Source: Propionicimonas paludicola (GTDB taxonomy: Bacteria > Actinomycetota > Actinomycetes > Propionibacteriales > Propionibacteriaceae). Taken from it: a DNA stretch of 64,000 bases. The stretch spans positions 992,001 to 1,056,000 of the forward strand of contig NZ_PDJC01000001.1 of the NCBI RefSeq assembly GCF_002563675.1, written 5' to 3'. This document shows, piece by piece, positions 47,181-48,480 of the stretch (positions are counted from its first letter, which is position 1; each line of letters begins with the position of its first letter). The notes under the pieces are model-generated. The model did not search any database, was not told where the DNA came from, and saw only the letters and a list, made by a program, of their open reading frames with translations. Both the position numbers and the translations under genes were made by a program.

Positions 47181-47280
47181 CGTCCGCTTCGCTACCGGTT
47201 GGCCTACTTCGCTACCGGTCGGTCCACTTCGCTACTGCTCTAGGGGTAGCGAAGCGCGTCCACGGGTAGCGAAGCGGACG
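47181..47280. repeat. Left repeat array (3 forward + 2 inverted copies, 20-base period)
   Basis: The core CTTCGCTAC occurs at 47187, 47207 and 47227, and its complement GTAGCGAAG at 47246 and 47266. Forward copies are mostly followed by CGGT. Units 1 and 5 form a perfect 16-bp inverted repeat (CGTCCGCTTCGCTACC at 47181-47196 with 47265-47280). Units 3 and 4 form a 9-bp dyad with a ten-base loop. The variable flanks of units 1 and 5 match each other, which argues for selected pairing or symmetric binding. Confidence 0.85.
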
Positions 47281-47389
47281 CGTCTCGGCCGGCGCCGCAG
47301 TGATGACGGCCGAGTAGCTATCCACAGATTCGCCCGGATCGGGCCGATGGCCCCCTGAATGGCAGGCTCAGCGTGGTGTGCTGTGCGTC

Positions 47390-48319
47390 ATGGATCGTGG
47401 GCGGACGACCGACGAGCTCGTCCGAGGCGAGGGAATCGCACCGGGCGAGCTGCGCGCGGCCTGCAGGGATGGGCACCTTGAGCGCATCCGGCGGGGGAGC
47501 TACGCAGCCAGGACCGACCTGGACGCGCTCGCCCGGCATCGCCGCCTCATTGCGGCGACGTTCCCACTGCTCGCGGAGGGCAGCGTGCTGAGTCATACCT
47601 CTGCTGCCGTGCTGCATGGCCTTCCTGTGCGCGAGGATCGTCTTGATCGGGTGTGGGTGACCCGGGCCGGCGACGGCCATGGTCGGCACGGACCGGTGGT
47701 CCATTTGCGCAGGGCGTCGTTGTTGCGAGATGACCTCGACGCTGTTGACGGGTTGCCGGTCACGAGCCTGGCCCGCACGGTAATGGATCTGGCACGGGAG
47801 CTGACCCTCGACTGGGGTGTGGTCGGGCTGGATGCCGCCCTGGCCGACGGCTGCGCGCCCGAGGCTTTGGGTGAGGTGCTCGACCGAATGAGCAACTGGC
47901 CTGGACGGCGTCGCGCGGCCGCGGCACTTCGACTTGCCGATGGTGCAGCGGGGTCGCCCGCTGAGTCGATCAGCAGGGTGCAGATGTACCGGCTGGGGTT
48001 CCCGATGCCCGTCACGCAGTTCCGAGTGATCCTGGACGGTGCGCTTGTTGCGACAACTGACTTTGGCTGGGATGACTACGGGCTAGTGGGCGAGTGTGAT
48101 GGACGAGTCAAGTACGGCGAACTGCTTCGTCCAGGTGAGACGCCGGCCGACGCGGTGATGCGCGAGAAGCGCCGTGAGGAGAGGATTCGCCAGGCGGGCT
48201 TCTGGATCGTCCGGTGGGGATGGCGTGAGGCCAACGACCCCGACCAGTTGCGGAGACTGCTTCGTCGGGGGTTCGACCTGGCGCCGCGCCATCCGGCGCC
48301 GAAAGCTCAGCGGGCGTAG
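47390..48319 (+). CDS. AbiEi-type N-terminal domain fused to DUF559/Vsr-like nuclease domain
   Basis: 309 aa from ATG 47390 (GTG 47378 would add four residues); no good ribosome-binding site precedes either. Residues ~1-60 (TTDELVRGEGIAPGELRAACRDG, ERIRRGSYA) resemble the winged-helix AbiEi antitoxin N-terminus, followed by SHTSAAVLHGLPV and VTSLARTVMDLA as in AbiEi-family proteins. Residues ~190-295 carry a PD-(D/E)xK pattern: ESISR, TTDFGWDDYGLVGECDGRVKY (broken here at D, E, D and K), then REERIRQAGFWIVRWGW, matching DUF559/very-short-patch-repair-like nucleases. No AbiEii toxin is adjacent. Codon use looks less extreme in GC than the neighbouring ribosomal genes, consistent with recent acquisition. 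Function unknown. Confidence 0.75.
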   Translation: MDRGRTTDELVRGEGIAPGELRAACRDGHLERIRRGSYAARTDLDALARHRRLIAATFPLLAEGSVLSHTSAAVLHGLPVREDRLDRVWVTRAGDGHGRHGPVVHLRRASLLRDDLDAVDGLPVTSLARTVMDLARELTLDWGVVGLDAALADGCAPEALGEVLDRMSNWPGRRRAAAALRLADGAAGSPAESISRVQMYRLGFPMPVTQFRVILDGALVATTDFGWDDYGLVGECDGRVKYGELLRPGETPADAVMREKRREERIRQAGFWIVRWGWREANDPDQLRRLLRRGFDLAPRHPAPKAQRA

Positions 48320-48380
48320 GGCACTCGCAGGCCGTAGGACCCCTCTCGGATCACCAGTCGCTGCCGCCGCTCTCTGTCGG

Positions 48381-48480
48381 GGCCCGCTTCGCTACCCCTT
48401 GGGCTGCTTCGCTACAGCTCCACCGGTAGCGAGGTGGCAGTACCGGTAGCGAAGCAGCCGGAACGGTAGCGAGGTGAGCC
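48381..48480. repeat. Right repeat array (2 forward + 3 inverted copies, 20-base period)
   Basis: CTTCGCTAC occurs at 48387 and 48407. The complement occurs at 48426 (GTAGCGAGG), 48446 (GTAGCGAAG) and 48466 (GTAGCGAGG). Units 2 and 4 form a perfect 14-bp inverted repeat (GGCTGCTTCGCTAC at 48402-48415 with 48446-48459). Read in reverse complement, the array has the same order of orientations as the left array. It ends 73 bases before the dapB ATG, so it lies in the dapB leader or promoter region. Confidence 0.85.

Follow-up and report, generated by a model that had tools for sequence, protein, structure and literature searches.

The window analysed here, that is, the whole 64-kb stretch of DNA (64,000 nucleotides), contains in the gap between pnp and dapB a gene for a 309-residue AbiEi/DUF559-like protein enclosed by two inverted arrays with a 20-bp period. 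The source genome, Propionicimonas paludicola (G000), is one contig of 3.26 Mb, and the products of the genes adjoining the window gene were identified with Pfam as PNPase and DapB. The features of the locus, in window coordinates, are the following.

47181..47280, no strand assigned: left palindromic array, five 20-bp units in the order F-F-F-R-R with core CTTCGCTAC; RNA fold z −6.67
47390..48319, + strand: AbiEi/DUF559-like gene for a putative nuclease, 309 aa from ATG
47405..47506, + strand: AbiEi_4-like N-terminal part, likely DNA-binding (residues 6–39; Pfam E 0.00014, below cutoff)
47567..47914, + strand: AbiEi_1-like middle part (residues 60–175; Pfam E 0.0023, below cutoff)
47963..48214, + strand: nuclease-type core (residues 192–275) with invariant E192, Q210, D224, E235, D237, K241, E259, and R262
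48384..48476, no strand assigned: right palindromic array, five units in the order F-F-R-R-R, three with exact cores and two with one mismatch; RNA fold z −7.22

Sequence inspection and an inverted-repeat comparison bear out the array pair described in the first-pass annotation, including the F-F-F-R-R and F-F-R-R-R layouts, the 20-bp step within one orientation (19 bp over the orientation switch), the matching flanks of left units 1 and 5 (16 bp) and of right units 2 and 4 (14 bp), and the mirror-image arrangement, the left and right arrays being inverted copies of each other with 75% identity over 89 nt. The claim that the core is present in all ten units holds exactly for eight of them, which read CTTCGCTAC, but the right-array units at 48426 and 48466 are only near copies, reading GTAGCGAGG with one mismatch. 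All eight exact copies of the core in the 64-kb window (8/8) lie inside the two arrays; 100 shuffles gave 0.10 copies on average and never more than 2. Each array folds as RNA more strongly than 200 of 200 shuffles, and an Rfam search of 46000–50000 returned no family at gathering score. A perfect 17-bp inverted repeat at 47126–47163, outside the array and 3′ of pnp, is likely a terminator.

The encoded protein and its neighbourhood

The window gene has an alternative GTG start at 47378 (313 aa in the list of open reading frames). An AbiEi-type antitoxin feature is present in its product: a PADLOC AbiEi model matches residues 13–197 (best 4e-16), and the Pfam matches to AbiEi_4 and AbiEi_1 lie below gathering cutoffs, the AbiEi_4-like part being matched at E 0.01 in 20 of 41 homologues. 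The residues listed above for the nuclease-type core are the same in all 41 proteins of the main alignment, in which loci L039, L046, and L107, below the repeat threshold introduced in the next section, are included. These residues form a pattern that we take to be a PD-(D/E)XK active site of the DUF559/Vsr type. The DUF559 model does not match the window protein, for which Pfam gives the AbiEi parts only; among homologues, L052 matches it weakly (0.021) and L100, L113, and L114 above cutoff. Thus, for the first-pass proposal of an AbiEi N-terminus joined to a PD-(D/E)xK nuclease, the first half is supported by AbiEi_4 and AbiEi_1 at the sub-cutoff scores given, and the nuclease half is inferred from the invariant residues and from a related subfamily that matches DUF559. 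A scan against NCBIfam gave no match, one against PHROGs gave scattered weak matches only, and a PDB sequence search found no solved relative, its best matches being at chance level. Y1_Tnp is absent from the Pfam scans of the window protein and its homologues, which return AbiEi families instead, and one homologue carries the label ‘AbiEi family antitoxin domain-containing protein’.

Ten neighbour proteins scanned at other loci are ordinary metabolic or core proteins, such as ketol-acid reductoisomerase, ribosomal L25, a DEAD-box helicase, and an Mrp-type ATPase. A nucleotidyltransferase toxin (AbiEii/DUF1814) is not among the ten, nor does one adjoin the window gene; a toxin-antitoxin pair is ruled out by this absence at the loci checked. 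Of 50,697 phage records none matches the window protein, and of 72,556 plasmid records three do, the one inspected having core genes around it, and 0 of 28 candidates were confirmed in a close-relatives scan of viral contigs, on which grounds phage or plasmid origin is ruled out. At 59 of 78 loci, as judged with a simple gene finder, the upstream neighbour faces the unit with its 3′ end; a start of both neighbours at the unit is seen in only 2 of the 78. A ketol-acid reductoisomerase gene lies directly 5′ of the homologue at L098 (G000, 1158.5k) and of that at L111 (G018), and the two homologues have palindromes of their own.

These results bear on one of the readings offered in the first-pass annotation, a solitary defence or addiction module, whose nuclease would attack incoming DNA while being held or sensed by its own arrays. 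Most members of the family match PADLOC AbiEi models and several diverged members often occur in one genome, in keeping with such a module. However, the ten neighbours scanned include neither toxin nor methyltransferase and are ordinary genes, and the phage records hold no match. Positive evidence for the module was not found, and we regard it as very unlikely.

Pairing of gene and repeats and their shared geometry

Homologues were gathered by protein similarity alone from a relatives' set (30 loci), a phylum-wide draw (29, the 30th being the window's own), a further set (23), one plasmid-record locus, and 20 + 17 further places picked by hand from the relatives' match list with their flanks unseen at picking; subtraction of five duplicates and of one locus without both flanks reduced the 120 loci to 114. 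Matching left and right repeats (flank score ≥44) are present at 85 of these 114 loci in Actinomycetota, which are not fully independent, several homologues coming from some genomes and L030 and L031 being nearly identical. Dinucleotide shuffles reach a maximum score of 40 (n = 1140), mismatched locus pairs score ≥44 in 4 of 1360 cases, and 0 of 30 dapB flanks reach 44 (maximum 41). Among 141 predicted genes in 17 stretches, one passes, which is the window-gene orthologue of G026, versus 0 of the 140 others. Chance and ordinary intergenic hairpins are ruled out by the dapB and predicted-gene controls. For the 30 loci from relatives, the best match to the left flank is the locus's own right flank in 25. 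The phylum-wide draw, in which 81 of 296 genomes have a homologue at E 1e-20, gave 20 of 29 loci that score ≥44 and rank first.

Three observations are counted against the reading developed below, in which gene and repeats form a nuclease–palindrome unit. First, 29 of the 114 loci fall below threshold; among these, inspection shows a one-sided palindrome at L039 and weak palindromes at L046 and L107. Second, the repeats are missing from a clade of five sequences that keep the nuclease-type residue pattern, the three of them scanned matching DUF559 above cutoff. Third, the paired-repeat label shows many gains or losses on the tree (112 sequences, short proteins left out), on which it is clustered, with 19 changes versus a shuffled mean of about 25.

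A more conventional origin, in which ordinary terminator hairpins or RAYT-spread REPs lie near the gene by accident, could draw on the location of arrays behind stop codons, on their strong folds, and on the presence of Y1_Tnp (PF01797) genes in G000 (one) and G028 (two), all away from the window gene. Yet paired palindromes are also present in the seven other genomes tested, where Y1_Tnp has no match, only one single core-like word turned up within the 4 kb surrounding each of the three Y1_Tnp genes, and accidental adjacency is excluded by the comparison of 85/114 with 0/30 and 0/140. RAYT-spread REPs in particular are ruled out by the missing Y1_Tnp match in seven of nine genomes, and this origin as a whole is extremely unlikely.

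The repeats vary even between similar proteins. Seven homologues of G042 have flanking repeats that differ from each other, one of the seven (L107) being sub-threshold, and unlike repeats are found in pairs such as L106/L108 and L109/L110 despite 56–88% identity in each sixth of the protein; similar repeats are kept in the pairs L098/L101, L035/L037, and L043/L128. As judged from these comparisons, repeat specificity is different between close protein relatives.

The repeat sequence changes by locus and the geometry is constant, consisting of mirrored half-sites 19 or 20 bp apart. The matched left segments are palindromic above the highest shuffled control at 74 of 85 loci, and direct repeats of at least 7 bases peak at spacings of 19 bp (34/85) and 20 bp (13/85), with no more than 4 at any other spacing from 8 to 40. 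The full F-F-R-R layout is found in 73 of 170 flanks, belonging to 46 loci, and in 0 shuffled flanks; the period is 19 or 20 in 71 of the 73. When left and right arrays are compared at 43 loci, repeat-core columns are 91% identical and spacers 75%, the core being better kept in 35 loci and the spacer in 6; the use of the left array to define core columns may have introduced a mild bias. The 19–20 bp spacing and the core conservation therefore point to a protein that reads half-sites about two helical turns apart. In some families, L047 for example, spacers are fully paired by inspection, and in these a hairpin or cruciform may also be of importance. In REP/RAYT systems a GTAG head precedes the palindrome; here GTAG lies inside the window-repeat core GTAGCGAAG, and by inspection the repeats of L047, L045, and L106 are without a GTAG head.

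Binding of such sites has a precedent in PMC7319586, where proteins of the AbiEi family are described as recognising inverted repeats close to the gene that encodes them; for Streptococcus agalactiae AbiEi and for Rv2827c these are 23-bp inverted repeats in the promoter of the gene itself. This precedent supports binding of the arrays and at the same time feeds a rival explanation, autoregulation, in which an AbiEi-type repressor would act on the upstream array, the 3′ array would be a second operator or a terminator, gene-free (solo) arrays would be further regulated sites, and the nuclease-type fold would be structural only. The characterisation of AbiEi there as plain repeat-binding repressors is counted against the nuclease–palindrome unit; the median distance from the left array to the start codon 3′ of it is 131 bp, and half-sites at 19–20 bp suit protein binding. 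On the other hand, the second array lies behind the stop codon (median 10 bp), most solo arrays seen in G000 lie behind stop codons rather than at promoters, and the nuclease-type acidic and lysine residues are invariant. The operator array on two helical turns considered in the first-pass annotation fits the half-site spacing, but alone it leaves the 3′ array and the solo arrays unexplained, and autoregulation is judged unlikely to be the explanation.

Gene-free arrays and the pnp-dapB gap

Six clear sites in G000 have arrays without the gene (491.6k, 1560.6k, 2291.1k, 2298.4k, 2611.2k, and 3005.5k), and about three further arrays are degenerate or have a variant core (near 1469.0k, 2925.8k, and 2931.3k); the pattern scan was run at three mismatches, at which the reversed-pattern control gives 3 matches, and the weakest array forms are less sure. 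The clear solo arrays lie in intergenic gaps, mostly right behind stop codons, with the exception of that at 1560.6k, which sits 5′ of a predicted gene start. In G000, arrays of another, related type were seen near 1469.0k, 2925.8k, and 2931.3k, as well as in the 2291k and 2298k flanks; their cores are CGCGCTACC and GGTAGCACC, and the period is again about 20 bp. The first-pass annotation had treated gene and arrays as tied together, a view to be doubted if arrays were found elsewhere without the gene. Taken literally, that tie fails at several G000 loci, and the arrays are rejected as a mark of the window gene only; what stands is a linkage of gene and arrays seen in the matching repeats at 85 of 114 loci, but not an exclusive one.

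Solo arrays of other families were found in G042 (two) and at two sites in G033, and all three repeat families validly tested (G000, G042, and G033) have them. In a cross-genome check the G042 pattern has no match elsewhere and the G033 pattern two single chance-like matches; the window motif occurs at no more than one mismatch in 2 of 77 relatives' genomes, G000 counted, these being G000 and G028. The small number of solo copies (about nine in G000 and two for each of the other two families) is a further point against the nuclease–palindrome unit, as is the single gene copy seen within the window repeat family.

In G000 and G028, both flanks are common at three solo-array sites and one flank at a fourth (491.6k), and these arrays are therefore old. 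Two solo arrays of G028 are missing at the matching places of G000, L061 (C21:44602) versus 2011.8k and L059 (C10:9046) versus 2416.5k. At L061, CTAG is found at both edges of the extra piece, and the empty G000 site has one CTAG that serves two convergent stop codons; at L059, a clear duplication at the edges of the extra piece is not evident. These unlike edges are a further point on the side against the nuclease–palindrome unit. Within L023 (G000, 2286000–2304000), arrays at 2291.05k and 2298.39k, which are 277-bp direct repeats with 87% identity, bracket about 7.4 kb encoding, according to Pfam, an IclR-type regulator and peptide-transporter permeases. The G028 counterpart has a single array and the stretch is missing, an arrangement that recombination at the arrays would leave, in either direction.

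Orthologues of the window gene lie between pnp and dapB also in G028, G026, G018, and G003 (identity 74, 60, 55, and 55%, respectively), G003 and G018 being nearly identical at this place. Palindromes flank the gene on both sides in 5 of 5 genomes in which it was found at this place, and their sequence differs by species; same-locus homologues lacking repeats, which by the first-pass reasoning would speak against linkage, are thus not the case, all four other orthologues having palindromes of other sequence. The empty-site comparison envisaged there for pnp-dapB was run on 30 dapB loci; for 16 of them the stretch also contains pnp, and in 14 of the 16 no homologue is detectable between the two genes. 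Six of the 14 gaps are just 93–121 bp, and one gap measures 934 bp. By inspection, solo palindromes of other types are present at pnp-dapB in identical G012/G026 sequences and in G021, and that of G012 resembles the repeats around another G012 homologue, L123. In Aestuariimicrobium kwangyangense (L172), a homologue is found close to the opposite side of a pnp-like gene, an rpsO-like frame adjoining it (from open reading frames), which suggests that the window-gene family has settled near pnp repeatedly.

The presence at pnp-dapB of solo arrays in some species and gene-bearing arrays in others, together with the resemblance just noted for G012, might be explained by a homing-type drive, in which a solo array would be the target and its cutting would lead to replacement by an array-gene-array copied from the homologue. 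However, no site was found at which one repeat family is solo in one genome and carries the gene in a second, and the pnp-dapB gene is an orthologue common to five genomes rather than a fresh arrival. Such a drive is distinctly unlikely.

Relation to known systems and proposed mechanism

In REP/RAYT systems, as described in PMC2817692 and PMC3733652, the gene lies between two inverted REPs, which occur dispersed as well. The likeness to the present family lies in one nuclease gene between two palindromic repeats that are also dispersed intergenically, often behind stop codons, and in several gene-repeat pairs having their own sequences each. Flanking palindromes (85/114 loci) and, at low copy, dispersed gene-free repeats are found here, whereas PF01797 is not found in the flanked gene. 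The enzyme instead combines AbiEi parts with PD-(D/E)XK-type residues, with no Y1/HUH domain found; the half-sites of the window family are mirrored at 19–20 bp; and solo copies per family are few, in contrast to the high copy numbers described for REPs. The type IV AbiE antitoxin has related N-terminal and middle parts (Pfam, PADLOC), and its family, according to PMC7319586, binds inverted repeats by its own gene. The present proteins differ in a nuclease-type C-terminus, in the absence of a toxin gene at the loci checked, and in arrays on both sides and elsewhere.

Solitary DUF559/Vsr-type nucleases and homing endonucleases are likewise encoded by lone genes with nuclease-type residues, homing genes lying inside one split site. 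The window gene shares the first property but lies between complete palindromic arrays rather than inside a split site, and it is chromosomal with no phage-record match. As to classical insertion sequences, the window repeat family has one gene copy, and CTAG is present at both edges of one presence/absence site, with nothing clear at the other. A description of such a nuclease–palindrome pairing was not found in the open-access papers searched. The pairing lacks the enzyme that defines REP/RAYT and, at the loci checked, the toxin that defines AbiE, and it would work like REP/RAYT. The comparison suggests an undescribed partnership of a nuclease and palindromic DNA repeats.

The explanation that we favour, with slightly better than even confidence, is that the array-gene-array unit is a member of a class of REP/RAYT-like nuclease–palindrome units of Actinomycetota chromosomes. 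The AbiEi-type N-terminus would bind the mirrored half-sites 19–20 bp apart, a predicted binding that is likely. The nuclease domain would then nick or cut the bound (or hairpin-extruded) array, a predicted cutting that is plausible. We further infer that repair of the break would copy the array, and occasionally the gene with both arrays, to other 3′ intergenic sites, and gene-free copies would persist as solo arrays. This explanation draws on comparison of paired arrays, locus-specific sequence, shared geometry, intact nuclease-type residues, solo arrays, presence and absence between sister species, gene-free pnp-dapB gaps, and the absence of a toxin. The nearest of the three first-pass readings is a nuclease-driven mobile unit with complex ends, but there are gene-less dispersed copies, and a REP-like system therefore fits better than a plain two-ended transposon.

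A broader version of the favoured explanation is offered tentatively, its probability being judged somewhat short of even. It would comprise a phylum-wide REP-like class independent of HUH transposases, in which an AbiEi-derived nuclease and its half-site arrays diverge as a self-specific pair, spread by break repair to 3′ intergenic sites, and rearrange the chromosome as recombination points. If the proposal is true, two or more unrelated enzymes would be partners of bacterial palindromic repeats, and a gene that is common in Actinomycetota and labelled as an AbiEi antitoxin would keep a repeat family instead of serving as an antitoxin. Each gene would have its natural DNA sites in the repeats next to it, so that specificity could be read from genomes for many natural protein-DNA pairs, and the purpose of REP-like repeats would become testable in a second, independent system.
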